This document shows positions 41,200-57,022 of a stretch of DNA of 64,000 nt, piece after piece. Origin of the DNA: Solimonas sp. K1W22B-7 (GTDB lineage: Bacteria > Pseudomonadota > Gammaproteobacteria > Nevskiales > Nevskiaceae); the NCBI RefSeq assembly GCF_003428335.1, contig NZ_CP031704.1:1302001-1366000 (forward strand), read 5' to 3'. A program made the translations under genes and the position numbers. Position 1 is the first letter of the stretch. Every line of letters begins with the position of its first letter. The notes under the pieces are model-generated. The model was not told the DNA's origin and did no database searches. It saw only the letters and a list, made by a program, of their open reading frames with translations.

Positions 41200-42567
41200 T
41201 TACTTGGTCGTCATCTTCTGCACCGAGCTGGCGCTGAAGTAGTCGTCCTTGAACGAGACGCTGACGTCGTTGGGCTTGTCCTCGTTGAAAGCGGCGGTCA
41301 CGAAGTAGCGACCCGAGGTGAAGTGGTAGATCACTTCCGGCACCGTGGTCGCCGCCAGGATGTTGTAGGCGAAGATCAGGTGGCCTTCCTGGAACTGGTA
41401 GAGCTCGTCGCGCTTGTCGTAGTCGTCCACGGCCACGATGTTCCAGCTGTCCTCGTCGATGTAGAAGCGGCGCTTCTTGAAGGTGTGGCTGGTACCCTGC
41501 TTCAGGTCGGCCTCGACCACCCAGACACGGTGCAGCTCGTAGCGCGGCAGATCGGGATTGAGGTGCTTGGGCTTGGCCAGGTCCTTGTACTTGAGCTTGT
41601 TGCCGGAAATCTTGTTGGAGTTGTACGGGATGAACATCTCCTTCTTGCCGACCAGCTTCCAGTTGTAGCGCTCCAGCACGCCGTTGAACATGTCCACCTG
41701 GTCGTAGAACTGGTGGCCGTCGGTGCCCTCGTAGGGATTGTCGCAGCAGACCGTCGGGGCGCGGCGGATGCGCTTGAGGCCCGGCGAGTACAGCCAGGCG
41801 GCGCGGCCTTCCGCACCCGTGCCGGCCTTCTCGTGCACCAGGATGAAGGTGCCGGCCATGCGCGGCGGCTCCACCGTCTTGGACAGGTACTTGAGGAACT
41901 CGCCCGAGTTCTTCGTGACCGGCACCGGGCTCTTGATCGACGCGTAGCCGAAGGTCACGTCCTCGATGATCTTGGTCAGCTGGAACTGTCCGTTGGGCTG
42001 CACGATCATCTGGTTGTTGAAGCGCGTCTGCGCCTCGCCGCGCCACTTCATCTTGTGGTTCCAGATCGGCTCGGCGCCGGTCTTGGGAATCGGGAAGGGG
42101 AAGCCCAGCTTGCAGTTGTCCGGCGTGTCGGTGCCGACCATCTCGCAGTTGACCGCATTCTCCGCCGTCGCCTTCAGGATCGCCTCCGGGAAGTTCACCA
42201 CGCGGTGCGACGGATACACGTTCATCTTGTAGCTGTCGTAGGTCTTGAGCAGTTTCTTGTGCCCTTCCGTCAGCTTGGCCGCGTACTGCTCCATGTTGGC
42301 CTTGGTGATCGTGAACAGCGCCTTCTCGGCGTCGATCTTCGCGTCATTGGGGAACTCGCCCTTGAGCGCACCTCGCTGTGCCGCCGGCGTCCAGGCCGGG
42401 ATGCTGCCGTCCTTGTTGGGGCCTTTCTCGGCGCCGACCGGGGTCAGTTCCTGGCCGAGCTTCGCCGCTTCGGCAGCGGGGACCTTGGCCAGGACCGACG
42501 GCGAAAGACTGAACGCCGCAGCGGCAAAGCCCGCCAGCGCCAGCGCCTTGAACTGGGTGTACTGCAT
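41200..42567 (-). CDS. DUF1329 periplasmic protein (LolA/LolB-like fold), copy 2
   Basis: A 455-residue paralogue of the product at 14482, with a signal peptide ending VLAKVP and the same hallmark stretches (LTPVGAEKG, YDSYKMNVYPSHR, the RIRRAPTVCCDNP segment). A hydrophobic-ligand carriage role is inferred as for copy 1. Unlike copy 1 it has no adjacent DUF1302 gene and is monocistronic. Its start (GGAGAGATGTA before ATG 42567) lies 69 bases downstream of a CCTAAC-N4-GTTAGG site, which links it to the MalT-like regulator encoded behind it. Confidence 0.87.
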   Translation of the reverse strand: MQYTQFKALALAGFAAAAFSLSPSVLAKVPAAEAAKLGQELTPVGAEKGPNKDGSIPAWTPAAQRGALKGEFPNDAKIDAEKALFTITKANMEQYAAKLTEGHKKLLKTYDSYKMNVYPSHRVVNFPEAILKATAENAVNCEMVGTDTPDNCKLGFPFPIPKTGAEPIWNHKMKWRGEAQTRFNNQMIVQPNGQFQLTKIIEDVTFGYASIKSPVPVTKNSGEFLKYLSKTVEPPRMAGTFILVHEKAGTGAEGRAAWLYSPGLKRIRRAPTVCCDNPYEGTDGHQFYDQVDMFNGVLERYNWKLVGKKEMFIPYNSNKISGNKLKYKDLAKPKHLNPDLPRYELHRVWVVEADLKQGTSHTFKKRRFYIDEDSWNIVAVDDYDKRDELYQFQEGHLIFAYNILAATTVPEVIYHFTSGRYFVTAAFNEDKPNDVSVSFKDDYFSASSVQKMTTK

Positions 42568-42636
42568 TACATCTCTCCTGTCGTGACCCGCTGCTTGTGG
42601 GCGAGGCAAGAGTGGCGCAGGACAGGGGCGGGCGCC

Positions 42637-42652
42637 CCTAACTAGGGTTAGG
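42637..42652 (-). promoter_or_regulatory. CCTAAC-N4-GTTAGG site upstream of DUF1329 copy 2
   Basis: A perfect 16-base palindrome with arms CCTAAC and GTTAGG. On the gene's strand it is preceded by AAAA. Its near edge is 69 bases from the ATG, almost the same distance as at two other local genes. It probably binds the LuxR regulator at 42712-45438. I see no convincing -10 box, which would fit activator dependence. Confidence 0.75.
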
Positions 42653-42711
42653 TTTTCATCGCTCTTCGATCCTGCCGGGTACGGTTGCCGCGGATGCAGG
42701 GCCGCGGCGGT

Positions 42712-45438
42712 TCACTTCTTTACGCCCTCGGCGCCGAGCAGGCCCAGGCTACGTGCCTTTGCCAGAGCGCCCGAGCGATTCTTGCTGCCGAGCTTGCCGT
42801 AGATGTTGTGCAGGTGCCACTTCAGCGTGCCCTCGCTGATGAAGATCGACTCCGCGATTTCCCGATTGCTGAGGCCGGAGTCGAGCTGGCGCAGGATCTT
42901 CAGCTCGCGCTTGGTCAGCTCCTCGACCAGCCCGGAGACCGGGCGCGCCGCGGCCCCGCCGGCGGGTTCCAGCAGGCTGCGCAGCAGGCCGGCGACTGCC
43001 GGATCGCGCGACAGCGCAGTGCCGCCGCGCTGCGCGATCGCGGCGACTTCCGCGGCGTCGTCCAGGAACAGGCGCCGGTACCCATGTGCCGTGCCCAGTT
43101 GCAGGGCCTCGCCCAGCGCCGCCGCCGCCGGTTCCGGGGCACCGGCATGGCGCTGCGCCGCCGCGAGCAGCAACAGCAGCTCCGCCTGGCGGCGCAGCAG
43201 CCCCTTCTCGCGGGCGTGGCGTAGAGCCGACTCCAGCGGCCGGACTGCGCTGGCAGGGTTGCTGTGCAGCAGCAGCCGCGTCGCGGAGCGCGAGGCCTTC
43301 TCCGCCGCCATGTCCCAGCCCGTGGCCGCTTCGACCGGCCGGTCGATGCCGTAGCGCCCGGCCAGCGCCAGCGCCGCATCGAATTCGCGTGAGCGGCAGC
43401 GCCAGCCGCATTCCTCGGTGGCCAGGGTGATCTCCACCCGCGGCAGGCCGCGCCGCGCCGCCGCCTCGCGTCCCGCTTGCAGGCTGGCGTAGCCGGCCTC
43501 GGCATTGCCCTGCAGGAACTGCAGGCGCGCCTGCGTCAGCCAGGCCATGATCAGCACGTCGGCGGTGCCGTACTCCTCCAGGTTGACCAGGCCGACCTCC
43601 AGGTGGCGCAGCGCCTGCTCGGTCTCGTCGAATTCGTAAGCCACCGCTGCCAGGATCACCTCGAAGACGCTGGCATGGCTGCGATGGCCGTCGAGCTTGT
43701 CGCGCAGCAGCTCCAGCCCGGCCTGGCAGCAGCGCCGTGCATCACCGTAGGCGCCGCGCTTCATCAGCAGGAACGCTTCGACCGTGTAGCTCCAGGCCAG
43801 GCCGTAGTAACCCTGGTGCGCCTGCAGCACGCGCCGGCCCTGCTGCATCGCCTGCAGGCCCGCATCGATGTCGCCGCAGCTCTTGTGGCCGAAGGCCAGC
43901 GAGTTCCATGCCGAGCCGAGCTGCACCGGCGCCGCCTGCGGCCAGCGCTCCAGCCAATGCTGCGCCGTCTCGCGCACCTTGCGGCCCTCGTCGCCGAGGG
44001 CCTGGGCGAGGACCTGTTGCAGCTCCAGCGCACAACGGATCGTGTCGATGCCGTCGCGCTGTGCCGCGGCGTCGGCGGTTTCCAGGCGCGTCAGCAGGCG
44101 CTCCAGATGACGCACCTGCGCCTGGGCCTGGTCCAGCCGCGTCGCGAACAGCAGCGAGAGGGCATAGTTGATGCGGATCGTCGGGTAGCGGTCCATCCAC
44201 TCGTGCGGGATCGCGTGCATCCAGCGCAGCACCATCTGGTGATACCCGAGCCGGTGAGAGGTGTCCTCGACGGTTTCGGCCAGCCATTGCGTGGCCGGCT
44301 CCCAGGCCTCGGCGCGGATCGCGGCATTGATCGCATCCTCGGTGTGGCCGCGCTGCTGCAGCCACTGCGCGCCGCGCAGCAGTACCGCCGCGCAGTCCTG
44401 TGGCTGCGCCATCCGGTAGCGCCGGCGGAAATACTCGCCGACCAGCTGGTGGAAGCGGAACCACTCGCCGCGACGGTCAAGCGCGATCAGGAACAGGTTG
44501 CGCGCCTGCAACTCGGCCAGCAGTGTCTCGGCCCGGTCGTTGCCGGTGGCGGCGCGCGCCAGTGCGCCGCCGATGCGATCGAACTGCGCGGCCTGGAACA
44601 GGAAACACCGCGTGGTCTCGTCGAGCCGGCTCAGCACCACGTCGCCGAGGTAGTCGATGAGACTCTGGTCGGAGCCGGCAAAGGCTTCGATCAGCTGTTC
44701 GCGATCCGGCGCGCCCTGCAGCGCCAGCGCCGCCAGTTCCAGCCCGGCCGGCCAGCCCTCGGTCTTGCGCACCAGCTGCATCAGGTCCTGCGCCGACAGC
44801 TCGCCATCCAGGCGCGCCTGGCAGAAACGCCTGGCCTCGTCGTAGTCGAACGTCAGGTCGTGCTGCGAAAGTTCGAACAGGCTGCCGCGCACGCGCAGGC
44901 CGCCGAGACGGACCTTGGCGTCCTCGCGCGAGCCGATCAGGAACTGGATGCGTTTCGGTGCGTAGTTGAGCAGCCATTCCACTACCTGCAGGGCCTCGGC
45001 GTTGTGCAGGCAGTGCAGGTCGTCGAGGAACAGGGCGATGCGCCGTTCCACCCGCCCCAGGTCGGCCGCCAGGGACTCGAGCACCAGCTTGGGGGCGCTC
45101 GCCGGCCCGTCCAGCTGCGCCGTCGCATCGGCTCCGATCTCCGGCGCCACCGTCTGCAGCGCCCCGACCAGGTAGCGCAGCAGACGCGCCGGATCGTTGT
45201 CGTCCTCGTCCAGCGACAGCCAGGCGCAGAGGGTGTCGCGCTCGCCGAGCAACTGGAACCAATGGGCCAGCAGCGTGGATTTTCCGTAGCCGGCCGGCGC
45301 GACGACGCTGGCCACGGTGGCCTGCCCGGCCAGCAGCGCCGCCGGCGGGTCCAGGCGCGGCCGCGGCAGTGGCCGCTGCGTGCCCCCTCCGGGGAACAGC
45401 TTGGCCTCGACGAGCGTGATCTGCGCACTGGCGGTCAT
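42712..45438 (-). CDS. MalT-like LuxR-family regulator (LAL type)
   Basis: A 908-residue STAND/LAL regulator. Walker A lies at about 47-55 (APAGYGKST) and Walker B at RIALFLDDLHCL near 135. A long tetratricopeptide-like helical region covers the middle, and a C-terminal LuxR HTH reads LTKRELKILRQL, then NREIAESIFISEGTLKWHL. MalT-type proteins activate catabolic operons when bound to ATP and an inducer. The start is ATG 45438 with GGAGCGG. It lies between two units that carry the CCTAAC-N4-GTTAGG palindrome, and one site lies 34 bases upstream of its own ATG, suggesting autoregulation. Confidence 0.9.
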   Translation of the reverse strand: MTASAQITLVEAKLFPGGGTQRPLPRPRLDPPAALLAGQATVASVVAPAGYGKSTLLAHWFQLLGERDTLCAWLSLDEDDNDPARLLRYLVGALQTVAPEIGADATAQLDGPASAPKLVLESLAADLGRVERRIALFLDDLHCLHNAEALQVVEWLLNYAPKRIQFLIGSREDAKVRLGGLRVRGSLFELSQHDLTFDYDEARRFCQARLDGELSAQDLMQLVRKTEGWPAGLELAALALQGAPDREQLIEAFAGSDQSLIDYLGDVVLSRLDETTRCFLFQAAQFDRIGGALARAATGNDRAETLLAELQARNLFLIALDRRGEWFRFHQLVGEYFRRRYRMAQPQDCAAVLLRGAQWLQQRGHTEDAINAAIRAEAWEPATQWLAETVEDTSHRLGYHQMVLRWMHAIPHEWMDRYPTIRINYALSLLFATRLDQAQAQVRHLERLLTRLETADAAAQRDGIDTIRCALELQQVLAQALGDEGRKVRETAQHWLERWPQAAPVQLGSAWNSLAFGHKSCGDIDAGLQAMQQGRRVLQAHQGYYGLAWSYTVEAFLLMKRGAYGDARRCCQAGLELLRDKLDGHRSHASVFEVILAAVAYEFDETEQALRHLEVGLVNLEEYGTADVLIMAWLTQARLQFLQGNAEAGYASLQAGREAAARRGLPRVEITLATEECGWRCRSREFDAALALAGRYGIDRPVEAATGWDMAAEKASRSATRLLLHSNPASAVRPLESALRHAREKGLLRRQAELLLLLAAAQRHAGAPEPAAAALGEALQLGTAHGYRRLFLDDAAEVAAIAQRGGTALSRDPAVAGLLRSLLEPAGGAAARPVSGLVEELTKRELKILRQLDSGLSNREIAESIFISEGTLKWHLHNIYGKLGSKNRSGALAKARSLGLLGAEGVKK

Positions 45439-45471
45439 GGCCGCTCCTGGTCGGTGTCTCCTCCCCCAAAT

Positions 45472-45487
45472 CCTAACTTCAGTTAGG
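45472..45487 (+). promoter_or_regulatory. CCTAAC-N4-GTTAGG site in the luxR/acyl-CoA operon divergent region
   Basis: A perfect palindrome CCTAACTTCAGTTAGG preceded by CCCCCAAAT. It lies 71 bases before the acyl-CoA dehydrogenase ATG and 33 bases before the regulator ATG on the other strand. Confidence 0.78.
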
Positions 45488-45558
45488 TCTTTTGGCAGCG
45501 GTTGGTTCCCAAAGTACCACCCATCGCCGCCACACGGCAGCAACCGAGGAGAACACAC

Positions 45559-46806
45559 ATGGCATACGACGGCATCCGGGTCCAGCTGGGCCCCACGGGG
45601 CTGGAACCCCAGCAGAGCGAAACGGAGGAGGCCATCCTGACCGGTGTCCGCCGCTTCGCCGAAAAGGTCATGCGGCCGATCGGCCGCGAACTCGACGAGC
45701 TGCACGACCCCAACCAGGTGATCGCGCCGGGCTCGTCCCTGTGGACCCTGCTGGGCGAGTACCAGAAGCTGGGCCTGACCGTCGGCTCGATCTTCGAGCT
45801 GCCGGCCGAGGAGCGCGGCCGCATCATGTCCACCGCCTTCGAGGAACTGGGCTGGGGCGACGGCGGCCTGGCGATCTGCCTGGCGGCCTCCACGGTGCCG
45901 TGGATCGTGATGCACGCGATGCAGAACCAGACCCTGCTGGAGCGCTACCCGGAGGATCGCGTCGGCTGCTGGGGCATCACCGAGCCCGACCACGGCTCCG
46001 ACATCCTCGATTTCGGCCGCCAGACCGCGCAGCCGGGCTCGTCCTACGGCAAGCCCAACTGCGTCGTCCGCATCGACGGCGACGAACTGGTCGTCAGCGG
46101 CCAGAAATCCGCCTGGGTGTCCAACGGCCCGATCGCCGGCCTGTGCTGCCTGTTCGCCTCGCTGGACGACGGCAGCGGCGAGTTCAAGCAGTGCTGCGTG
46201 ATCCTGCCGCTGGACCGTCCCGGCGTGTCGCGCGGCAAGGTGCTGGACAAGCTTGGCCAGCGCGCCCTGACCCAGGGCGAGTTGTACTTCGACGACGTGC
46301 GCGTGTCGCGGGACCACATGGTCGCCGCGCCGGGCGAGCCGTACCACGCCGCGATCTACGCGCTGCTGGCCGAGGCCAACTGCATCATGGCCTCGATCTG
46401 GACCGGTGCCGCCCGCGCCGCCTACGAGCACGCCCTGGAGTACGCCCACACGCGCAAGCAGGGCGGGGTGCCGATCATCCGCCACCAGAACGTGCGCTAC
46501 CGCCTGTTCCACATGTTCCGCAAGGTCGAGGCCTCGCGCGCCCTGGCGCGGCGCGTCATGTACTTCAACCACACCAGCCCGGTGCCGGCGATCCAGGGCT
46601 CCATCGCCGCCAAGATCACCGCCACGCAGACCGCGTTCGAGGTTGCCTCCGAGGCCATCCAGATGTTCGGCGGCAACGGCGTCACCCGCGAGTACCCGGT
46701 GGAGAAGCTGCTGCGCGACGCCCGCTCCTCGATGATCGAGGACGGCTGCAACGAGTTCCTCGCCATCAAGGGCGGCACCTACCTCGCCGACCCGGTGCGC
46801 TACTGA
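45559..46806 (+). CDS. Acyl-CoA dehydrogenase
   Basis: A 415-residue acyl-CoA dehydrogenase starting at ATG 45559 behind GAGGAG. Domains run in the usual order: N-terminal helices, beta-domain with WGITEPDHGSDILD, C-terminal helices with FGGNGVTREYPVEKLLRDAR. The C-terminal catalytic glutamate is retained in SMIEDGCNE, though the usual GT is replaced by GC. The substrate is probably a medium or long acyl-CoA. It is first in an operon of four genes and is likely activated by the MalT-like regulator. Confidence 0.86.
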   Translation: MAYDGIRVQLGPTGLEPQQSETEEAILTGVRRFAEKVMRPIGRELDELHDPNQVIAPGSSLWTLLGEYQKLGLTVGSIFELPAEERGRIMSTAFEELGWGDGGLAICLAASTVPWIVMHAMQNQTLLERYPEDRVGCWGITEPDHGSDILDFGRQTAQPGSSYGKPNCVVRIDGDELVVSGQKSAWVSNGPIAGLCCLFASLDDGSGEFKQCCVILPLDRPGVSRGKVLDKLGQRALTQGELYFDDVRVSRDHMVAAPGEPYHAAIYALLAEANCIMASIWTGAARAAYEHALEYAHTRKQGGVPIIRHQNVRYRLFHMFRKVEASRALARRVMYFNHTSPVPAIQGSIAAKITATQTAFEVASEAIQMFGGNGVTREYPVEKLLRDARSSMIEDGCNEFLAIKGGTYLADPVRY

Positions 46807-46818
46807 AGCGATGCCGCC

Positions 46819-48054
46819 ATGAAAACCAATGCATACGTCGCCGGCGTCGCCATGACGCGCTTCGGCAAGTTCCTCGACCGCGGCCTCAAGTCGCTCGCCG
46901 CCGAGGCCATCGGCGGAGCCCTGCAGGACGCCGGCCTCGAAGCCGCCGATCTCCAGGCCGCCTACATGGGCAACGGCGCCGCCGGCGTCACCACCGGCCA
47001 GGTGCTGATTCCCGGCGAGGCGGTGCTGCGCGGCATGGGCATCGGCCGCATTCCGGTGATCAACGTCGAGAACGCCTGCGCCACCTCCGCCACCGCCTTC
47101 CAGCAAGCCGCTCAGATGATCACGCTCGGCGTCTACGACGTGGTCCTGGTCTGCGGTTTCGAGAAGCTCTACAACGAAGACAAGCGCAAGACCTTTTCGG
47201 TGTTCCAGGGCGCGGTCGACCTGGAAGCCATCGACGAGGTACTGGCCGGCCTGGCGCAGAACATGAAGGACACCGGCGCCACCGGCGACCTCGAGGGCGC
47301 CGGCACCAGGCGCTCGCTGTTCATGGACCTGTACGCCAGCATGGCGCGCAGCTACATGCAGCGTACCGGAGCCACCGCGAAGCATTTCGCCATGGTCTCG
47401 GCCAAGAACTCGCTGCACGGCAGCCTCAACCCCAAGGCGCAGTACCAGGACCGCCTGACGGTGGAGGAAGTGCTGGCCGCGCCGATGATCGCCGACCCGA
47501 TGACCCTGCTGATGTGCTCGCCGATCGGCGACGGCGCCGCCGCGGTGGTGCTGGTGTCCGAGCGCAAGGCCCGCGCCATGGGGCTCAGGGACAGGGTCCG
47601 CGTGCTGTCCTCGGTGCTGGCCTCCGGCTTCGACTATGCCGCAGGGCAGGAGACCGTGCCGGAGTACGCCGCGCGCCTGGCCTACGAGGCCGCCGGTGTC
47701 GGCCCGCGCGATCTCGACGTGGTCGAGCTGCACGACGCCTCCTCGCCGGCCGAAGTCATCTACTACGAATACCTCGGCCTGGCGCCGAAGAACGAGGGCG
47801 CCGCCCTGGTCGAGAGCGGCGCCACCACCCTGGGCGGCCGCATCCCGGTCAACACCTCCGGCGGCCTGCTGCGCAAGGGCCATCCCATCGGCGCTTCCGG
47901 CGCCGGACAGATCGTCGAGCTGGTCGAGCAGCTGCGCGGCCGCGCCGGCGGCCGCCAAGTGGAGGGCGCGCGCACCGCGATGGCGGAGAACGGCGGCGGC
48001 TTCATCGGCAACGACGTCGCCGCCATCGTCATCAGCGTGCTGCAGCGGGAGTGA
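46819..48054 (+). CDS. Thiolase, SCP2/lipid-transfer type
   Basis: A 411-residue thiolase-fold protein. The nucleophile is C87 in VENACATS, with HDASSP near 305 and KGHPIGASG near 355. The second active-site cysteine region of classical thiolases reads ENGGG here, as in SCP2-type thiolases and the lipid-transfer-protein family that cleave 3-ketoacyl-CoA of branched or sterol side chains. It follows the dehydrogenase by 12 bases and precedes the acyl-CoA ligase by five. Direction of catalysis (cleavage or condensation) cannot be settled by sequence. Confidence 0.87.
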   Translation: MKTNAYVAGVAMTRFGKFLDRGLKSLAAEAIGGALQDAGLEAADLQAAYMGNGAAGVTTGQVLIPGEAVLRGMGIGRIPVINVENACATSATAFQQAAQMITLGVYDVVLVCGFEKLYNEDKRKTFSVFQGAVDLEAIDEVLAGLAQNMKDTGATGDLEGAGTRRSLFMDLYASMARSYMQRTGATAKHFAMVSAKNSLHGSLNPKAQYQDRLTVEEVLAAPMIADPMTLLMCSPIGDGAAAVVLVSERKARAMGLRDRVRVLSSVLASGFDYAAGQETVPEYAARLAYEAAGVGPRDLDVVELHDASSPAEVIYYEYLGLAPKNEGAALVESGATTLGGRIPVNTSGGLLRKGHPIGASGAGQIVELVEQLRGRAGGRQVEGARTAMAENGGGFIGNDVAAIVISVLQRE

Positions 48055-48059
48055 AGAAC

Positions 48060-49667
48060 ATGAGCAGGCATTCCGAACTGACCCTGGCGGGCATCCTCGC
48101 CAACCGCGCCGCCGAGCGCCCCGACCTCGACGTGCTGACGATCGAGGGCGGCGGCAAGCGTCCGGACGAAGTCCGCAGCTATCGCCAGCTGTGGAACCAC
48201 GGCCGCTCGCTGGCCGCCGGGCTGACCGCGCTGGGGCTGCAGCAGGGCGAGCGCTTCGCGCTGCTGATGGCCAACCACGCCGAGTTCGTCGAGGCGATGG
48301 TCGCCGCGGCGGTGTCCGGTACGGTGTTCGTGCCGATTGACCCGCGCACCCGCGGCGACAAGCTGGCCTACATGCTGCGCTTCGCCAACTGCCGCGGCGT
48401 CATCGCCGCCGACTACGCGCTGCCGAACCTCGCGGAGGTCCACCGCGATCTTCCCGAGCTGAAATGGATCGTGGGCCTGCCGACGGACGAGGGCAAGGCC
48501 TTCGACGACACGCTGCGCCAGCACGGCGTCGTGCCCTGGTCGCAGCTGCTCTTGGCCGACCCCGAGAGCGTCACTCCCGTCGAGTTGCCACCGGAAGCGG
48601 CGATGCAGCTGATCTACACCTCGGGCACCACCGGCGATCCCAAGGGCATCGTCATGACCCACCGGCGCTATTGCGAGAACGCCGCGGTCGCGCCCCGCCT
48701 GTTCGGCTACCGCCCGGACGACCGCCCGTATTCCGGACTGTCGATGACCCATGCCAACGCCCAGGTCCTGACGCTGGGTTCGGCGCTCGCCGCCGGCCTG
48801 CGCTGCGTGCTGTCGCGCCGCTTCACCAAGTCGCGGCTGTGGGACATCACCCGCCAGTACGGCTGCACCAGCTTCAACCTGCTCGGCGGCATGACCACCG
48901 CGGTCTATGCCGACCCGCCGAAGCCCGACGACGCCGACAACCCGGTGCGCTTCATCGTCTCGGCCGGCATGCCGGCGGCGATCTGGGCGGACTTCGAGCA
49001 GCGCTTCGGCGTGCAGATCCTGGAGTTCTACGGCGCCGCCGAGGGCGGCCTGACGGTCAAGCCCCTCGGTGCCGGCCCGGTCGGCTCCATCGGCAAGCCG
49101 ATCCCGACGCTGCAGCACCGCATCGTCGACGACGAGGGCCGCGATGTACCGCGCGGGCAGCCGGGCGAGCTGCTGTTCCGGTACGCCGACGGCTCGGACT
49201 TCAAGGTCGAGTACCACCAGAACCCGGAAGCCAGCGCCAGGAAATGCAAGGACGGCTGGCTGCACATGGGCGACGTCGTCACCGAGGATGCGGACGGCTG
49301 GCTGTACTTCCAGTTCCGCAAGGGCGGCGGCATCCGCTGCAACGGCGACTTCATCAACCCGGCTTTCGTCGAGAAGGCGATCGCCGAGTCGTCCCAGGTG
49401 GACGACGTCTACGTCTATGGCGTGCCGGCGAAGTCCGGCGTGCCCGGCGAGAAGGATCCGGTCGCCGCCGTCGTACCGAAGAACCCCGTGGGCTTCGATC
49501 CGCAGGCCCTGTTCAGGGCCTGCCGCAAGAAGCTCGAGGCCAACTTCGTTCCGCGCTACATCCAGGTGCTGGAACAGATTCCCAAGACCGCCTCGGAAAA
49601 ACCCCAGGAGCGTTTCCTGATCGAGGCCTTCGAACGCAACCCCACCCAAGTCCATACCGAAACCTGA
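48060..49667 (+). CDS. AMP-binding acyl-CoA synthetase
   Basis: A 535-residue ANL-superfamily enzyme that activates a carboxylic acid with ATP and CoA. Motifs are LIYTSGTTGDPKG near 182, the adenylate site FYGAAEGG near 323 and GWLHMGDVV followed by YFQFRKGGGIRCNG near 400-425; the catalytic C-terminal lysine would be in KTASEKPQERF near 510. It resembles carnitine/crotonobetaine and medium-chain acid ligases. It is in the operon with the acyl-CoA dehydrogenase and thiolase. Confidence 0.86.
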   Translation: MSRHSELTLAGILANRAAERPDLDVLTIEGGGKRPDEVRSYRQLWNHGRSLAAGLTALGLQQGERFALLMANHAEFVEAMVAAAVSGTVFVPIDPRTRGDKLAYMLRFANCRGVIAADYALPNLAEVHRDLPELKWIVGLPTDEGKAFDDTLRQHGVVPWSQLLLADPESVTPVELPPEAAMQLIYTSGTTGDPKGIVMTHRRYCENAAVAPRLFGYRPDDRPYSGLSMTHANAQVLTLGSALAAGLRCVLSRRFTKSRLWDITRQYGCTSFNLLGGMTTAVYADPPKPDDADNPVRFIVSAGMPAAIWADFEQRFGVQILEFYGAAEGGLTVKPLGAGPVGSIGKPIPTLQHRIVDDEGRDVPRGQPGELLFRYADGSDFKVEYHQNPEASARKCKDGWLHMGDVVTEDADGWLYFQFRKGGGIRCNGDFINPAFVEKAIAESSQVDDVYVYGVPAKSGVPGEKDPVAAVVPKNPVGFDPQALFRACRKKLEANFVPRYIQVLEQIPKTASEKPQERFLIEAFERNPTQVHTET

Positions 49668-49678
49668 GGAGAATCACC

Positions 49679-50803
49679 ATGTCCAACTCACGCAACATCG
49701 TCGTCTACGGCGGCAGCGGCTACACCGGCAAGCTGATCGGCGAAGCCCTGGCCCACCGCCGCATCCCCTTCTACTTCGCCGGCCGCAATGCCGACAAGCT
49801 GAAGAAGAACCTGGACATCATCCGCGAGCGCATGGGCGCCGACGCCTGGAAGCTCGACGCCGAAGTCGTCGCCGTCGAGCACGACAAGGCCGCGGTGCTG
49901 CCGCTGTTCAGGAAGGCCAAGGTCGTCATCAACGTCGTCGGTCCGTTCATGCAGCTGGCCTGGCCGATCGTGGAAGCGTCGCTGGAAGCCGGCTGCCACT
50001 ACATCGACACCACCGGCGAGCAGGACTGGACCAAGGCCATCGGCGAGAAGTACGGCGCCCCGTTCGCGGCCAGGCAGCTGCTGCTGGCCCCGGCCACCTC
50101 GTTCATGTGGTCTGCCGGCGCCATCGCCGCCGAAGTCGTGCTCGAGGACCCGGAAATCGACACGCTCGACATCCTCTACCAGGTCGATAACGGCCTGCCC
50201 TCGGAGGCCTCGACCAAGTCCTTCCTGCGCATGGTCTGCAGCGAGACCGCGCAGTACTACGTCGAGCAGAACGAGTTCAAGGCCTGGCCGAACGACAAGG
50301 CCTACCTGGTGACGCTGCCGTACCGCAACCAGCTGGTGCACGCCCATCCCTGGGGCGGCGCCTGCGAGCCGATCTGGTTCAAGGACCGCCTGCGCAACAT
50401 CAAGGTGCTGACCGCGATCGGCGAGCACCTGATCGACGGCGTCATCACCGCGATCAAGGCCTTCAACGAAAAGGCTCCGGGCCTCGACCAGGCCGGCAAG
50501 GAAGCGCTGACCAACGCCATCGGCGACCAGATCAACACCGGCGAACCGCCGAAGGACGATCCGGACGTGCAGCGCGGCGTGATCGTGGTGCATGGACAGA
50601 GCCGCACCAAAACCAGGACCTACGTGATGAACCTGTCGGCGGCCTACACCTGGACCGGCGAGATCTGCGCCGAGAGTGCCGAGCGCATCCTCAATGGCCA
50701 GCTCAAGGCCGTCGGCTTCCAGCCGGTCAGCCGCGCCTTCGGTCACCGCGAGCTGATCCGCAAGTTCAACGCGATGGGCTACACCAGCGCGCTGCCCGAC
50801 TGA
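49679..50803 (+). CDS. Saccharopine dehydrogenase-like (trans-acting enoyl reductase type) protein
   Basis: A 374-residue protein with an N-terminal Rossmann motif VVYGGSGYTGKLIGEAL, then VINVVGPFMQLAWPIVEA near 82 and CHYIDTTGEQ near 105. These match the saccharopine dehydrogenase NADP-binding family that includes mycobacterial trans-acting enoyl reductases. Lysine metabolism is unlikely in this setting; reduction of an acyl or ketone intermediate is more plausible. It starts 11 bases after the ligase and is followed by a strong hairpin. Confidence 0.82.
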   Translation: MSNSRNIVVYGGSGYTGKLIGEALAHRRIPFYFAGRNADKLKKNLDIIRERMGADAWKLDAEVVAVEHDKAAVLPLFRKAKVVINVVGPFMQLAWPIVEASLEAGCHYIDTTGEQDWTKAIGEKYGAPFAARQLLLAPATSFMWSAGAIAAEVVLEDPEIDTLDILYQVDNGLPSEASTKSFLRMVCSETAQYYVEQNEFKAWPNDKAYLVTLPYRNQLVHAHPWGGACEPIWFKDRLRNIKVLTAIGEHLIDGVITAIKAFNEKAPGLDQAGKEALTNAIGDQINTGEPPKDDPDVQRGVIVVHGQSRTKTRTYVMNLSAAYTWTGEICAESAERILNGQLKAVGFQPVSRAFGHRELIRKFNAMGYTSALPD

Positions 50804-50808
50804 GTCCT

Positions 50809-50844
50809 GGCGGCTACCGGGCGCCCCCGGCGCCCGTAGCCGCC
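50809..50844 (+). terminator. Strong 16-bp hairpin between operon end and thioesterase gene
   Basis: The arms GGCGGCTAC/GTAGCCGCC and GGGCGCC/GGCGCCC stack with one bulged C around a 3-base loop. There is no T-tract, so it may act as an mRNA 3' stabiliser or attenuator. It ends 14 bases before the thioesterase ATG, next to its GGAG site. Confidence 0.6.
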
Positions 50845-50858
50845 GCCGGAGCCCCGAC

Positions 50859-51359
50859 ATGGATCACCCCAGCCACGAATTGAGCATGACCCTGCTGATG
50901 ACGCCCGACACGGCCAACTTCACCGGCAACGTCCACGGCGGCAACCTGCTGCATCTGCTGGACCAGGTCGCCTACGCCTGCGCCAGCCGCTACTGCAGGC
51001 GCTATGTGGTCACCCTGTCGGTCGACCAGGTGGTGTTCAAGCAGCCGATCCACGTCGGCGAACTGGTGACCTGCCTGGCCGCGGTCAACTACACCGGCAA
51101 CACCTCGATGGAAATCGGCATCCGGGTGGTCACGGAGAACATCCAGACCCAGGTGCGGCGCCACGCCAACAGCTGCTACTTCACCATGGTCGCGATCGAC
51201 ACGCAGGGCAAGCCGGTCGCGGTCCCCCGGCGGCTGCCGTCGACCGCGGACGAACACCGCCGCCACCAGGCCGCCCGCCTGCGGCTGCAGTTGCGCCGCG
51301 AGATGCAGCAGCGGCAGGAGGCCATCCAGCAGGCCGGCGAGGCCACGGCGGCGGCCTGA
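50859..51359 (+). CDS. Acyl-CoA thioesterase, hotdog fold (YciA/BACH-like)
   Basis: A 166-residue hotdog thioesterase. MTPDTANFTGNVHGGNLLHL followed by LDQVA carries the family's active-site asparagine, histidine and aspartate, and the second half VVTLSVDQVVFKQPIHVGE is typical. It hydrolyses acyl-CoA to acid and CoA. The C-terminal 35 residues are a charged glutamine/arginine helix. It sits between the acyl-CoA operon and the PHA block and may balance CoA pools. Confidence 0.86.
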   Translation: MDHPSHELSMTLLMTPDTANFTGNVHGGNLLHLLDQVAYACASRYCRRYVVTLSVDQVVFKQPIHVGELVTCLAAVNYTGNTSMEIGIRVVTENIQTQVRRHANSCYFTMVAIDTQGKPVAVPRRLPSTADEHRRHQAARLRLQLRREMQQRQEAIQQAGEATAAA

Positions 51360-51395
51360 ACGGCAGGGGCCACGGCGACCGGATTCCCCCAAAAA

Positions 51396-51411
51396 CCTAT
51401 CTAAGGTTCGG
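51396..51411 (+). promoter_or_regulatory. Degenerate CCTAAC-N4-GTTAGG site upstream of the PHA block
   Basis: CCTATCTAAGGTTCGG matches the two perfect sites at five of six bases in each half. It is preceded by CCCCCAAAAA, very like the flank of the 45472 site, and ends 71 bases before ATG 51483, exactly as at 45559. Confidence 0.65.
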
Positions 51412-51482
51412 TGCGCAACCCACCCCCGGTCACCCATCATTTCATCGTCCGACATGGACTTGCACACCCAGGAGCTAGAGTC

Positions 51483-51680
51483 ATGATTCCCCATTTCGCC
51501 TTCTCGGATTATCCGCAGCGCGTGCGCCGGCTGCCGCGGCTGCCCTCGGCGGCCCGCAACGGCGCGCCCCTCGGCCGCAGCCCCGCCCGGGTCCGCCCGC
51601 AGGTCGTCGAGACCGCGGATGCCGGCGAGTACCTGCCGGCTTACCTGAGCCTCATCGGCCGTCATTTCGGCCGGCCCTGA
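51483..51680 (+). CDS. Small basic protein, 66 residues
   Basis: ATG 51483 has GGAGCTAGAG upstream. The product starts MIPHFAFSDYPQRVRRLPRL and is rich in arginine and proline, with a C-terminal EYLPAYLSLIGRHFGRP. I recognise no family. It is first gene behind a CCTAAC-type site and 19 bases before the MaoC gene, so it may be a PHA-granule-associated or regulatory peptide; that is speculation from position. Confidence 0.55.
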   Translation: MIPHFAFSDYPQRVRRLPRLPSAARNGAPLGRSPARVRPQVVETADAGEYLPAYLSLIGRHFGRP

Positions 51681-51699: not shown

Positions 51700-52173
51700 A
51701 TGCTGACGGACTACCGCTTCGATACCCTGCCCGGGCAGGTCGGCCAGGAACTGGGCGTCACGCCCTGGATGACCGTCGACCAGACGCAGATCGACCAGTT
51801 CGCCGAGTGCACCGGCGACCGCCAGTGGATCCACGTCGACGTCGAGCGCTGCAAGACCGACAGCCCCTACGGCCGTCCCATCGCGCACGGCTTCCTGACG
51901 CTGTCGCTGCTGGCCAGGCTGCTGATGGACCTCGGCCTGGTGCCGCCGGACGTCAGCCAGGCGATCAATGCCGGCGTCAACAACGTGCGCTTCAAGACTC
52001 CGGTACGCGCCGGCGCCCGGGTACGCGCCCGCGCCCGCATCGCCAGCGCCGAGCGCAAGGGCGAGGGCCGCATCCTGGCCACCGCCAGCGCGGTACTGGA
52101 AGTGGAAGGCGAGAAGGACCCGGCGCTGGGCGCCGACGTCACCGTCATGTTGTTCCGCGGAGCCCAGCCATGA
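51700..52173 (+). CDS. MaoC-family (R)-specific enoyl-CoA hydratase, PhaJ-like
   Basis: A 157-residue single-hotdog hydratase. The catalytic dyad aspartate and histidine fall in ECTGDRQWIHVD near 40, followed by PIAHGFLTLSLL near 62. Members hydrate trans-2-enoyl-CoA to (R)-3-hydroxyacyl-CoA. Its stop overlaps the PHA synthase start (ATGAGC), which supports a PhaJ role feeding beta-oxidation intermediates into polymer synthesis. NodN-like paralogues share the sequence, so the assignment rests on context. Confidence 0.84.
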   Translation: MLTDYRFDTLPGQVGQELGVTPWMTVDQTQIDQFAECTGDRQWIHVDVERCKTDSPYGRPIAHGFLTLSLLARLLMDLGLVPPDVSQAINAGVNNVRFKTPVRAGARVRARARIASAERKGEGRILATASAVLEVEGEKDPALGADVTVMLFRGAQP

Positions 52174-53852
52174 GCAAGACTCCACAGGAGCGCATCGCCG
52201 CCCACAGCGCCGAGGTGATTCTCGGCCCCAATCCCTTCGTCGGCTTCCGTGCCCGCGACGTCGCCCGCGAAGCCTTGCGCGTGCTCAAGCTGGCGGCCGC
52301 GCAGCCGCGGCTGACGGCCAGGACCGCCACCAGCCTCGGCCGCGAGCTGGCCCGCGTGCTGGGCGACCGTTCGCAGCTGGCGCCCGCGCCCAAGGACCGG
52401 CGCTTCGCCGACGCCGCCTGGAAGGACGATTCGCGCTACCGCCGCTGGCTGCAATCCTGGCTGGCGCTGGAGCAGGCCGTCGGCGAATGGCTGGAGGCGC
52501 AGCAGCTGCCGGCGCACAGCCGCGCCCGCCTGCAGTTCATGACCTCGCTGCTGACCGACGCCGTGGCACCCTCCAATTTTCCGTGGCAGCCGGAGGCGGT
52601 GAAGCGCTTCCGCGAATCCGGCGGCCACAGCGCCGTCGAGGGCCTGAAGAACCTGTGGCGCGACCTGCGCGAAAACCGTGGCCTGCCGGCCCAGGTCGAC
52701 AAGAGCCGCTTCAAGGTCGGAGACAACCTTGCCAATACCCCCGGCAGCGTGGTGTTGCGCACCGAACTGATGGAGCTGATCCAGTACCGGCCGACCACCG
52801 CCGAGGTGCATGAGCTGCCGGTGCTGATCGTGCCGCCGCAGATCAACAAGTACTACGTCTTCGACCTGACGCCGGAAAAGAGCGTGGTCCGCGGCCTGCT
52901 GGAGCAGGGCCTGCAGGTCTTCGTGATCAGCTGGCGCAATCCGGAGGCCGAGCACCACGACTGGGGCCTGGCCGAATACGCCGCCGCGATCGACACCGCG
53001 GTCTCGGCGATCTGCAACCTGGGCGCGGTGCAGCGCGTCAACCTGGTCGGCGCCTGCGCCGGCGGCATGACCCTGGCCAGCTATGTCGCCGCGCGCGCCG
53101 CCGCCGGTGACGCCCGCGTGCACTCGCTGACGCTGATGGTCAACGTGCTCGACGTGTCCGCCGTCGGCGACACGCCGATGGGCCTGTTCGCCACGCCGCG
53201 CGCCATCGCCGCGGCCAAGCGCTACTCGCAGGCCAAGGGCGTGCTCGACGGCAAGGACATGGCCGCCGCCTTCGCCTGGCTGCGCCCCAACGACCTGATC
53301 TGGAACTACTGGGTCAACAACGTGCTGCTGGGCAATGCGCCGCCGGCCTTCGACGTGCTGTACTGGAACAACGACAGCACACGCCTGCCGGCACGGCTGC
53401 ACGGCGAGTTCATGGACATCTACAACGGCAACGCGCTGACCCGGGCGGGCCTGCTGCGCCTGCACGGCGTACCGGTGGACCTGGGGCGGGTCAAGTGCGA
53501 CAGCTACCTGCTCGCCGGCACCACCGATCACATTACGCCCTGGAAGGCCTGTTACCGCAGCACCCAGCTGTTCGGCGGCCGCAACACCTTCGTGCTGTCC
53601 AGCAGCGGCCACATCCAGAGCATCCTCAACCCGCCGGGCAACAAGAAGGCGGAGTTCTGGACCGGCGGCGACACCGGGCCCGATGCCGAGGTCTGGCAGG
53701 CCGGCGCCGAGCGTCACAGCGGCAGCTGGTGGCCGCACTGGCATGCCTGGCTCAAGGCCCGCAGCGCTGCGATGCGCGCGGCGCCGGCAGAGGAGGGCAG
53801 CACCGATTACCCGGTGCTCGCGGCAGCACCCGGCCGGTACGTGCTGGGCTAA
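52170..53852 (+). CDS. phaC: Class II poly(3-hydroxyalkanoate) synthase
   Basis: A 560-residue polymerase that links (R)-3-hydroxyacyl-CoA monomers, typically medium chain, into PHA at the granule surface. The lipase-like box is GACAGG with C296, the same number as in Pseudomonas PhaC1, and the other catalytic residues are D453 (GTTDHITPW) and H481 (SSSGHIQS). Length and sequence are of the single-subunit class II type. It overlaps the upstream PhaJ-like gene by four bases and is followed nine bases later by a depolymerase-like gene. No phaD, phaF or phaI is seen. Confidence 0.93.
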   Translation: MSKTPQERIAAHSAEVILGPNPFVGFRARDVAREALRVLKLAAAQPRLTARTATSLGRELARVLGDRSQLAPAPKDRRFADAAWKDDSRYRRWLQSWLALEQAVGEWLEAQQLPAHSRARLQFMTSLLTDAVAPSNFPWQPEAVKRFRESGGHSAVEGLKNLWRDLRENRGLPAQVDKSRFKVGDNLANTPGSVVLRTELMELIQYRPTTAEVHELPVLIVPPQINKYYVFDLTPEKSVVRGLLEQGLQVFVISWRNPEAEHHDWGLAEYAAAIDTAVSAICNLGAVQRVNLVGACAGGMTLASYVAARAAAGDARVHSLTLMVNVLDVSAVGDTPMGLFATPRAIAAAKRYSQAKGVLDGKDMAAAFAWLRPNDLIWNYWVNNVLLGNAPPAFDVLYWNNDSTRLPARLHGEFMDIYNGNALTRAGLLRLHGVPVDLGRVKCDSYLLAGTTDHITPWKACYRSTQLFGGRNTFVLSSSGHIQSILNPPGNKKAEFWTGGDTGPDAEVWQAGAERHSGSWWPHWHAWLKARSAAMRAAPAEEGSTDYPVLAAAPGRYVLG

Positions 53853-53861
53853 GCTCCGGGC

Positions 53862-54752
53862 GTGGACCTGAGCAAAAGGCTGGACGAGGCACGTGCCTGG
53901 GGTTCCGGCCTGGAGCGCCAGCGCGCGGCCCTCGCGGCCAGCGGCGTCGAGATCGGCTTCGCCACTGTGCGCGGCCTGCGTCTGCGCTATGGCTGGCGCC
54001 CGGGGCAGGGGATGCCGCTGCTGTTCTGCAACGGCATCGGCGCCAACATCGAGTTGGCGCTGCCGCTGGTGCGCGAGCTGAAAGACGTTCCGGTGCTGCT
54101 GTTCGACATTCCCGGCACCGGCGGCTCGCCGCCGGCCTGGCTGTGGCCGACGCTGGCGCAGTACGCGCGCTACGCCGTCGGCCTGCTCGACGTGCTGGGC
54201 CATCGCGGCCCCTTCACCGTAGCGGGCGTGTCCTGGGGCGGGGGGCTGGCGCAGCGCATCGCCTACGACTACGGCGAGCGCGTGCGCGGCCTGGTACTGA
54301 TGTCCACCAGCCCCGGCGTGACCATGGTGCCGGGCCGGCTGTCCGCGCTGCTGCGCATGACCACGCCGCAGCGCTACCTGTCGCGCAGCTACATGGCGCG
54401 CAATGCCGCGACGATCTACGGCGGCGAGATGCGGGGCCGCCCCGACCACGCCATCGCCTTCGCCGGCATGACGCGAGCCCCGCATCGCCGCACCTATCTG
54501 CAGCAACTGGCCGCGATGCTGACGTTCTCGAGCCTGCCCTGGCTGCACCGCGTCCGCTGCCCGGCCCTGGTGATGACCGGCGACGACGATCCGCTGGTGC
54601 GCCCGGTCAACGCCCGGATTCTCGCTGCGCTGCTGCCGCAGGGCCGGCTGCACGTGGTGCGCGGCGGCGGCCACCTGTTCCTCGCATTGCAGCCGCAGGT
54701 GGCCGGTCCGGTGATTCTCGACTTCCTCGCCGGGGCCACGGCGCCGGCCTGA
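53862..54752 (+). CDS. phaZ: PHA depolymerase-like alpha/beta hydrolase
   Basis: A 296-residue hydrolase from GTG 53862. The nucleophile S124 is in GVSWGGG, with FDIPGTGGSPP near 85, the acid in MTGDDDPLV near 230 and histidine in RGGGHLFLAL near 265. These features match intracellular medium-chain PHA depolymerases (PhaZ), which mobilise stored polymer. The position directly after phaC is the usual place, although in Pseudomonas a second synthase often follows and is absent here. A generic esterase is the alternative. Confidence 0.82.
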   Translation: MDLSKRLDEARAWGSGLERQRAALAASGVEIGFATVRGLRLRYGWRPGQGMPLLFCNGIGANIELALPLVRELKDVPVLLFDIPGTGGSPPAWLWPTLAQYARYAVGLLDVLGHRGPFTVAGVSWGGGLAQRIAYDYGERVRGLVLMSTSPGVTMVPGRLSALLRMTTPQRYLSRSYMARNAATIYGGEMRGRPDHAIAFAGMTRAPHRRTYLQQLAAMLTFSSLPWLHRVRCPALVMTGDDDPLVRPVNARILAALLPQGRLHVVRGGGHLFLALQPQVAGPVILDFLAGATAPA

Positions 54753-55720: not shown

Positions 55721-56917
55721 TCAGCTCAGCGAAACCACGCTGTTCAACAGCGTCCGCACCAGCTTGGTCTGCCGCGTCACACCCGTCTTGCAGAAGATGA
55801 AACGCAGGTAGGTGCGCGCCGTGGTGCGCTTGACGTTGAGCTTCTCGGCGGCTTCCTCCACCGTGAGACCGTCGGCCAGGCACTGCGCCAGCGCCGCTTC
55901 CATGCGCGTCAGCCCGAACAGCCGGCGGATCGCTTCCTCGGAGGCCTTGCCGCTGCATTCCGGGTCGCGCAGGAACATCACCGCCACCGGGCGCTGCGCG
56001 CTGTCGTGCGGCCAGCTGCTGACCGGCGCTGGTTTCACCACCACGCCCAGGTTCATGCGGCCGGAAGGCCGTGTCACCGACAGCGCCTCGATCAGGCCCG
56101 GGTCCACCGGCGCGCCGGAGCAGACCTTGCGCACGATGCGCTGCAGCTCGCGGCCCTCGTCGTTGCGGTCCAGGCACAGCGTGCGGCCCTGCAGGCGCAT
56201 GCCGTCCTTCTCGTTGAGGATGCGGCGCGCCTCGGGGTTCACCTCGATCACGTCACCGTTGTGGGCAAAGCTGACCGTGCCCAGCAGCATGCGGTTGACC
56301 GTGCCGGCATAGAGCTGGCGCTCGCATTCCAGCGTGTCGATCTGCGCGTGCAGGCGCACCGCGCGCTTCAGGTGCGGCAGCAGGGCCCGGCACAGCGCCT
56401 TGTCGCTGTCCGAGAACGGCGGCGCGTCGGACGAGCGCGAGATGCGGAAGCGGCACTCGATGCCCTCCTGTGTACGCAGGTCGGCGCCCACCAGGTGCTC
56501 CACGTTCATCGGGCGCAGATACTCGCGGTACAGCGCGCTCTCGGTCCAGCGGCTCGCGCCCACCAGTTCCTCCGGCGTGATCACCTGGCCTTCGGGCAGG
56601 CCCACGAAGGGGTCCAGCGCGAAGAAGTGGCTCTGGTAGGACTCCGTGGCATCGGCCGCGGCCGAGTCGGTGTTGAGCATGAAGCCGGCCGACTGCGAGG
56701 AGGGCGGGCGCAGGATCATCGTCACGTGCATCGCGCCGAAGGTCTGCTGCAGCAGGCGCAGCGCGGTCTGCCAGGGCGTGGTTTCCATCGGCCCTTCATA
56801 GATCGCGTCGAACAGCGCGTTGAGGCGCTCGAATTCCATCGACACGCCGCCACCGGCCACAAGGCCCTTCGGCATCCGGTTCGGGCGGGGTTCGCCCGGA
56901 GTGATCAAGCGCAGCAT
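55721..56917 (-). CDS. LuxR-family transcriptional regulator with N-terminal sensory region
   Basis: A 398-residue regulator starting at ATG 56917, which has GAGGAGG six bases upstream; a longer frame to 57019 lacks such a site. The C-terminus is a LuxR-type HTH: LTRMEAALAQCLADGLTVEE, then AEKLNVKRTTARTYLRFIF. The N-terminal 200 residues and the PAS-like central segment (SFAHNGDVIEVNPEARRIL) are probably sensory, but the ligand is unknown. It may control the neighbouring esterase (starting 1,041 bases upstream, same strand) or the divergent LLM operon. Confidence 0.85.
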   Translation of the reverse strand: MLRLITPGEPRPNRMPKGLVAGGGVSMEFERLNALFDAIYEGPMETTPWQTALRLLQQTFGAMHVTMILRPPSSQSAGFMLNTDSAAADATESYQSHFFALDPFVGLPEGQVITPEELVGASRWTESALYREYLRPMNVEHLVGADLRTQEGIECRFRISRSSDAPPFSDSDKALCRALLPHLKRAVRLHAQIDTLECERQLYAGTVNRMLLGTVSFAHNGDVIEVNPEARRILNEKDGMRLQGRTLCLDRNDEGRELQRIVRKVCSGAPVDPGLIEALSVTRPSGRMNLGVVVKPAPVSSWPHDSAQRPVAVMFLRDPECSGKASEEAIRRLFGLTRMEAALAQCLADGLTVEEAAEKLNVKRTTARTYLRFIFCKTGVTRQTKLVRTLLNSVVSLS

Positions 56918-57022
56918 TGCAGTTCCTCCTCGCACCGGTGAGGGGGCACCGGCAACGACAGGTTTAACCGAGGGGCCAGACCCCCGATTCGTCTGAATTG
57001 ATGAAGGCCTGGTGACCATGAC

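Follow-up and report, generated by a model that had tools for sequence, protein, structure and literature searches.

The genome of Solimonas sp. K1W22B-7 contains, in a stretch of 64,000 nucleotides (contig NZ_CP031704.1, positions 1,302,001 to 1,366,000; the window in the following), two perfect copies and one degenerate copy of the palindrome CCTAAC-N4-GTTAGG close to the gene of a large ATP-binding regulator of the LuxR type (LAL). This raises the question of whether the palindromes are operators of this regulator, and which genes they would place under its control. LAL regulators are common beside genes for the use of oil, esters and lipids, but to our knowledge operators are known for few of them. 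In a preliminary description the three sites were proposed to tie a DUF1329 protein, an acyl-CoA operon and the polyhydroxyalkanoate (PHA) genes to the LAL encoded at 42712–45438. Recurrence of the palindrome in other genomes, its association with one type of recognition helix and its co-occurrence with LAL genes in the family support this proposal. The palindrome is very probably the operator of the LAL, and with a -10 hexamer it would make up a promoter of the lux-box (class II) type that depends on an activator.

The palindromes are found at positions 42637, 45472 and 51396 with 0, 0 and 2 mismatches (operators 1, 2 and 3). The distances from palindrome edge to start codon, 69, 71 and 71 bases, were correct when measured again. 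A search of the whole genome (5,373,342 bp) returned exactly two perfect copies, both in the window, versus none for a reversed control pattern. They are 2.8 kb apart and flank the regulator gene, one on each side. The number of looser matches is uninformative, because the control or the expectation yields more of them: with up to two mismatches 17 palindromes were found genome-wide versus 90 for the control, and with up to three mismatches 5 in the window versus 8.0 expected.

The box recurs near LAL relatives in several families of beta- and gammaproteobacteria. We compared 80 loci from public genomes, selected by similarity to the regulator (our own numbers for loci and genomes begin with L and G). 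With at most one mismatch the box is present in 13 of them, and all 15 copies are intergenic; 9.8% of that DNA is intergenic. In intergenic DNA the other half-site permutations, 59 in number, occur in 0.17 loci on average and in at most 2. Counted over all positions, CATCAC (23 loci) and CACCAT (16 loci) exceed CCTAAC (13 loci), but nearly all of their matches lie within predicted genes. Perfect copies number 7 in the 80 loci, whereas the permutations average 0.05 and do not exceed 2. The spacer N4 gives 13 loci, each of the other spacers from 0 to 12 at most 3.

Within the family, 7 of 58 genomes contain a perfect box, and 6 of these 7 are among the 8 genomes with the strongest LAL match (p = 4.7e-6, with a cut-off set post hoc). 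Of the 11 perfect boxes in 85 genomes of the order, 8 are no more than about 12 kb away from a LAL gene. The remaining boxes comprise one in G054 and a matching pair, each member of which precedes an acyl-CoA ligase. The pair (L122:7141 and L125:6901) precedes ligases that are 82% identical, in two genomes of one genus and on contigs apart from the LALs found; these boxes could possibly mark distant members of the regulon.

Presence of the box is also associated with the recognition helix of the neighboring regulator. All 13 box loci have a regulator with the helix [ST][EK]GT[LV]KWHLHN, so that the box occurs in 13 of 22 loci with this helix and in 0 of 57 without it (p = 1.9e-9; the count omits L064, the helix class was drawn post hoc and kinship among the loci, which is ignored, inflates the significance). 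A matrix trained without the scanned locus yielded weaker boxes in L004 (two), L005 and L128. A quick tree (63 rows) places the window regulator in a group of 15 rows with a support of 100, and 11 of these rows carry the box. Since the box is found in three further groups, it should, on this tree, be either old or have arisen more than once.

Several observations weigh against the assignment of the box to the LAL. The peptide KWHLHNIY was among the search patterns that selected the loci. Five of the 13 box loci are near-copies (L007/L009/L010 and L079/L081), and because of these, and of the scattered placement of the box in the LAL tree, the locus counts are not independent. A box with at most one mismatch is missing from nine of the 22 loci that have this type of helix. 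The contigs of two of them (L012, L072) start at the regulator gene, three (L004, L014, L026) have boxes with two mismatches, L005 has one with three, and L034 has a match scoring 22.7 in a stretch called coding. For L016 and L049, mismatch and matrix scans of the locus revealed no box at all. Likewise, no intergenic box at up to three mismatches was found for a LAL beside alkB on a Methylibium plasmid (L131), although its helix, TEGTLKWHLKN, is nearly the same. The 11 perfect boxes of the order compare with 16 for the reversed control, and class-wide, in 369 thinly drawn genomes, the box plus a -10 hexamer occurs in 3 versus 9 for the control. Because the whole-genome counts do not exceed the control, the case rests on location. 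The genomes with a box plus -10 hexamer, besides G000, are G311, with its LAL on another contig and its box before a desaturase-family gene, and G433; G433 and G054 are box genomes without a LAL match at 1e-30. Finally, operator 3 is weak, with two mismatches.

The palindrome could instead belong to another regulator of the same genes, such as a TetR-type fatty-acid repressor or the solo LuxR-type protein encoded at 55721–57019 (432 residues, C-terminal GerE domain). Half-sites of this length with an N4 spacing suit further dimeric helix-turn-helix (HTH) proteins as well, and Solimonas fluminis has the solo LuxR-type gene at 94% identity. Of the 29 related loci compared, however, only L003 and L017 showed a relative of it, and no further regulator common to the box loci was noticed, although not every neighbor was annotated. 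The box, in contrast, tracks the LAL helix and, in the genomes of the family, the strong LAL matches. We therefore regard another owner of the site as improbable and assign the palindrome to the LAL.

The similar distances to the start codons had been taken as a sign of a fixed activator position. The position is indeed fixed, but its anchor is the -10 hexamer and not the start codon. We oriented 25 sites toward the nearest downstream gene start. These 25 rows represent 24 palindromes, as L008:7554 was used both ways, and they omit repeats (L001, L002, L083, L084, L087, L089, L090, L113–L116, L118–L120), the near-copies L009, L010 and L081 and 17 site-orientations tabulated separately. A hexamer NANNNT (A at position 2, T at position 6) is located at offset 23 in 17 sites and at offset 24 in 7, together 24 of 25; the sole misfit is L127:7643. 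In the opposite orientation the hexamer is present at these offsets in 1 of 23 cases. At offset 23 the -10 score averages 2.11, versus a maximum of 1.08 over 500 shuffles. Of the 17 site-orientations set apart, the A/T pair is present at offset 23 or 24 in 10. Five of the seven failures (L006, L007, L009, L013, L003) are the second orientation of a palindrome that fits, or nearly fits, when read the other way; L014 and L126 make up the rest.

Start-codon spacing was ruled out as a rule, since it varies from 58 to 139 bp across the 25 sites (median 77; gene starts in the related loci were predicted with our own simple caller). The 69, 71 and 71 bases in the window are thus a local matter. The A-rich flank noted earlier holds for the upstream side, where A is found at positions -1, -2, -3 and -4 in 15, 18, 17 and 15 of the 25 oriented sites; its CCCCCAAA form precedes operators 2 and 3 and is absent before operator 1. 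The resulting gene-ward consensus is AAAA-CCTAAC-TTTN-GTTAGG-N22-NANNNT.

In this arrangement the palindrome is predicted to replace the -35 element, because it would span about -50 to -35 and leave 22–23 bp to the -10 hexamer. In a lux box a dyad likewise stands in place of the -35 element, centered near -42.5, and is bound by a GerE-type HTH. The predicted layout in the window, a dyad in the -35 position at a fixed distance to the -10 hexamer, is of this class II type, and the candidate binder also has a GerE-type HTH. It differs from LuxR in being a LAL, in which Pfam finds no autoinducer domain.

A palindrome in the place of the -35 element could also mean that the LAL binds there to cover this region and represses. 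Usually, a -10 hexamer with a regulator site instead of the -35 element marks dependence on an activator, as in class II promoters in general. Examples of both modes have been described: SCO6993 of Streptomyces, a LAL, is a negative regulator (PMC9628970) and AlkS represses PalkS1, but PalkB and PalkS2 are activated by AlkS through a repeat of this kind (PMC8784404). We consider repression from the box very improbable, and activation by the LAL remains the preferred mode.

With about 900 residues, a Walker A/B ATPase, a tetratricopeptide repeat (TPR) region and an HTH, the regulator has the features of a LAL (PF17874, 1.4e-19, and PF00196, 2.6e-15, in Pfam). It shares this architecture with AlkS of Pseudomonas putida GPo1 and Alcanivorax, which activates alkane-use genes from an inverted repeat (PMC8784404, PMC12740625). 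The AlkS operators are also 6-N4-6 dyads, with the spacer TTTA or TTAA in two of the AlkS loci read. In the plasmid alkS-alkB loci they are CTACACTTAAGTGTAG, CTACACTTTAGTGTAG and CTACCCCTTAGAGTAG, however, with half-sites of the CTACAC instead of the CCTAAC type. The AlkS helices are TED[AT][IV]KWHM or RED, compared with SEGT[LV]KWHLHN for the window type. The AlkS proteins are 21–22% identical to the window regulator, and two AlkS rows lie far outside in the 63-row tree (L132 dropped out of the rows on its BLAST score). The GPo1 repeat is described as being upstream of a -35 element (PMC12740625), whereas the window palindrome stands in its place, and there is no alkB beside the window regulator. 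An AlkS homologue has been described for Oleiphilus (PMC5847120); in an Oleiphilaceae locus (L019) a CCTAAC-type box precedes an alkane-hydroxylase-like gene.

MalT of E. coli resembles the window regulator in its ATPase, MalT-like TPR region and GerE HTH. The window protein reaches 285.7 bits with the NCBIfam MalT model, under the cut-off of 537, and the MalT sites are decanucleotides in direct repeat (PMC6099782), in contrast to the inverted repeat in the window. The regulator is predicted to work like AlkS, yet is neither AlkS nor MalT proper. Among the publications listed in a literature search, which left most subscription journals outside, none described a CCTAAC-type operator; this does not imply absence from print.

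The genes behind the boxes elsewhere have, by their annotation, a common theme, which is the uptake and oxidation of hydrophobic carbon. In Solimonas fluminis (L003) a perfect box is located 68 bp before a DUF1329 gene (89% identical), a box with one mismatch 58 bp before the orthologous MaoC-PhaC genes, and a box with two mismatches 74 bp before an acyl-CoA ligase gene that has a glucose-methanol-choline (GMC) oxidoreductase gene behind it. In a Nevskia locus (L013) a perfect box separates the LAL from the same dehydrogenase-thiolase-ligase-DUF5938 operon as in the window, arranged as at operator 2. DUF1329 beside MMPL is found behind boxes in three genomes: a perfect box lies 60 bp before a DUF1329-MMPL pair in G066 (L168), and boxes precede MMPL-DUF1329 pairs in G042 and G044 (L121, L123). 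Desaturase-family, alkane-hydroxylase-like genes follow perfect boxes in L019 and L041 and a box with two mismatches in L026; the L041 protein is 54–56% identical to annotated alkane 1-monooxygenases, 55% to that of L019 and 82% to that of L026. Other genes behind boxes encode aldehyde dehydrogenases (L011, L079, L121, L124), acyl-CoA ligases (L004, L122, L125), a GMC oxidoreductase (L006) and, in L008, a pyrroloquinoline quinone-dependent alcohol dehydrogenase and a short-chain dehydrogenase/reductase (SDR). The HlyD-type proteins behind boxes beside Aquabacterium LALs (L007, L018) fit this theme less evidently.

The link to the PHA genes is weak from the window alone. Operator 3 is one of 15 places in the genome with two mismatches, its hexamer is found at offset 24 rather than 23, and the start codon at 51483, 71 bases away, that had been taken for the start of the PHA unit opens a doubtful reading frame of 65 residues; a clear gene begins only with MaoC at 51700. 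Operator 3 could thus be a chance degenerate match, with the PHA genes outside the regulon. A scoring matrix trained solely on sites of other genomes, however, gave 30.8, 34.2 and 22.8 for the window sites at 42637, 45472 and 51396, and at most 15.8, in either orientation, for the remaining 14 two-mismatch sites of the genome. In 1.18 Mb of other LAL loci 6 matches score at least 13, and the highest, with 22.7 in L034, lies next to a close LAL. In addition, boxes precede MaoC-PhaC both in Solimonas fluminis and in L005 (three mismatches, 75 bp). A chance match is unlikely, though less so than the two alternatives above, and we keep the PHA genes in the proposed regulon.

The scores of the 14 other two-mismatch sites are far lower than those in the window, so the regulon, judged by such sites, seems to be confined to the window in this genome. 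No intergenic box was found around a GMC oxidase relative of the same genome (64%) or in two further regions checked. One of the 14, an intergenic candidate at genome position 2072699 (L145), was discarded: despite its A/T flank and a fitting A/T pair at offset 23, its matrix score is only 4.8. It lies upstream of a LexA gene, at 15 bp, and of a 70-residue open reading frame (ORF), at 126 bp, that precedes a phospholipase-C-family gene.

Based on these results we propose the following mechanism. The regulator would bind ATP and a hydrophobic-carbon signal, possibly an alkane, alkanol, fatty acid or ester, and oligomerize in the manner of MalT. Its GerE helices would then dock on both half-sites of AAAA-CCTAAC-TTTN-GTTAGG. 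Bound in place of the -35 element, the regulator would help sigma-70 polymerase to the promoter through a class II contact. In this way it would turn on the DUF1329 gene (uptake) and the acyl-CoA dehydrogenase-thiolase-ligase operon (catabolism) and, via the weaker operator 3, MaoC-PhaC (storage). At operator 2 the regulator may instead, toward its own gene, limit transcription, as only 33 bp separate the palindrome from the regulator start and no A/T-matching hexamer is present at offset 23 or 24 on the side facing it. The features of the locus are listed in the table.

Table. Features of the proposed LAL regulon (window positions)
Feature	Position	Strand	Description
DUF1329 protein	41200..42567	-	PF07044, 8.9e-130
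-10-like hexamer CACTCT	42609..42614	-	starts 23 nt after operator 1
Operator 1	42637..42652	-	CCTAACTAGGGTTAGG; read toward DUF1329 CCTAACCCTAGTTAGG; perfect; 69 bp before start codon 42567
LAL regulator, 908 aa	42712..45438	-	Walker A at 47, Walker B at 135, MalT-like TPR region, C-terminal GerE HTH with helix SEGTLKWHLHNIY
Operator 2	45472..45487	+	CCTAACTTCAGTTAGG; perfect; 71 bp before acyl-CoA dehydrogenase, 33 bp before regulator's own start
-10-like hexamer CAAAGT	45510..45515	+	starts 23 nt after operator 2
Acyl-CoA dehydrogenase	45559..46806	+	Pfam
Thiolase / lipid-transfer-protein-like	46819..48054	+	Pfam and NCBIfam
AMP-binding acyl-CoA ligase	48060..49667	+	Pfam and NCBIfam
DUF5938 / saccharopine-dehydrogenase-like protein	49679..50803	+	Pfam
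4HBT thioesterase	50859..51359	+	Pfam
Operator 3	51396..51411	+	CCTATCTAAGGTTCGG; 2 mismatches; AAAAA 5' flank; 71 bp before 51483
-10-like hexamer CATCAT	51435..51440	+	starts 24 nt after operator 3
65-aa ORF, probably leader or spurious	51483..51680	+	weak positive coding score
MaoC-like hydratase, first clear PHA-unit gene	51700..52173	+	Pfam
PHA synthase, PhaC_N plus alpha/beta hydrolase	52170..53852	+	Pfam
Alpha/beta hydrolase after PhaC	53862..54752	+	Pfam

The 65-residue ORF at 51483 has no Pfam match and no homologue among 20 relatives. An open frame of 1748 residues on the minus strand (42712–47958) was rejected as a gene; it arises mechanically, by linking the LAL with the antisense strand of the acyl-CoA operon. 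The DUF1329 protein is a possible partner in the uptake of hydrophobic substrates, by analogy with PP_0766 of Pseudomonas putida, which belongs to the same family. PP_0765-PP_0766 (DUF1302-DUF1329) has been proposed as a transport system, with PP_0766 needed for growth on Tween 20, in a paper whose main text does not contain the word LuxR (PMC10866462). The Pseudomonas LAL loci among the 80 have no box at up to one mismatch. DUF1302 has 33 matches in the Solimonas sp. K1W22B-7 genome, one of them in the window (11865–14459), which suggests many outer-membrane proteins for hydrophobic substrates.

Two loci contain stand-alone GerE proteins of 121 and 109 residues (L127:7729–8094 and L128:3145–3474), 48% and 43% identical to the HTH of a LAL. 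Their genes are located 69–70 bp downstream of a CCTAAC-type box (69 bp in L128), and genes for an acyl-CoA ligase and a GMC oxidase follow. Such a protein may be a detached DNA-binding domain that competes with the full LAL.

Loci with other helices contain related dyads. CCTATC-N4-GATAGG is found before tandem P450 genes near a LAL with an SVGT helix (L129), CC[GC]ATC-type dyads lie upstream of the LAL in L036 and L038, and in L015 and L017, with SEAT helices, dyads of the CCAACC or CCCAAC type precede an SDR gene. The tandem copies in L129 (4233–7692) both encode 420 residues, the first being a P450 by Pfam, and each has an identical CCTATCCTTGGATAGG box with AATAAT at offset 23. It is conceivable, at somewhat below an even chance, that these cases reflect a readable operator code for widespread, little-characterized LAL activators of beta- and gammaproteobacteria governing the use of hydrophobic carbon, in which the half-site shifts with the recognition helix. 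The shared promoter grammar would be an A-run, CCnAnC-N4-GnTnGG, 22–23 bp and a -10 hexamer. CCTAAC would pair with SEGT[LV], CCTATC or CC[GC]ATC with SVGT, SVPT, SEST and SEAT, and CTACAC with the TED/RED helices of AlkS. As examples with variant helices are few, we offer this only as a bold reading.

A defined operator with rigid spacing to the -10 hexamer makes the members of a LAL regulon predictable from sequence, and the unit of operator and -10 hexamer offers a reporter promoter for finding the inducer of the regulator. The finding would tie DUF1329 and PHA storage genes to control of the AlkS type. If the operator code is true, regulons for the use of alkanes, esters and lipids would be predictable from sequence.

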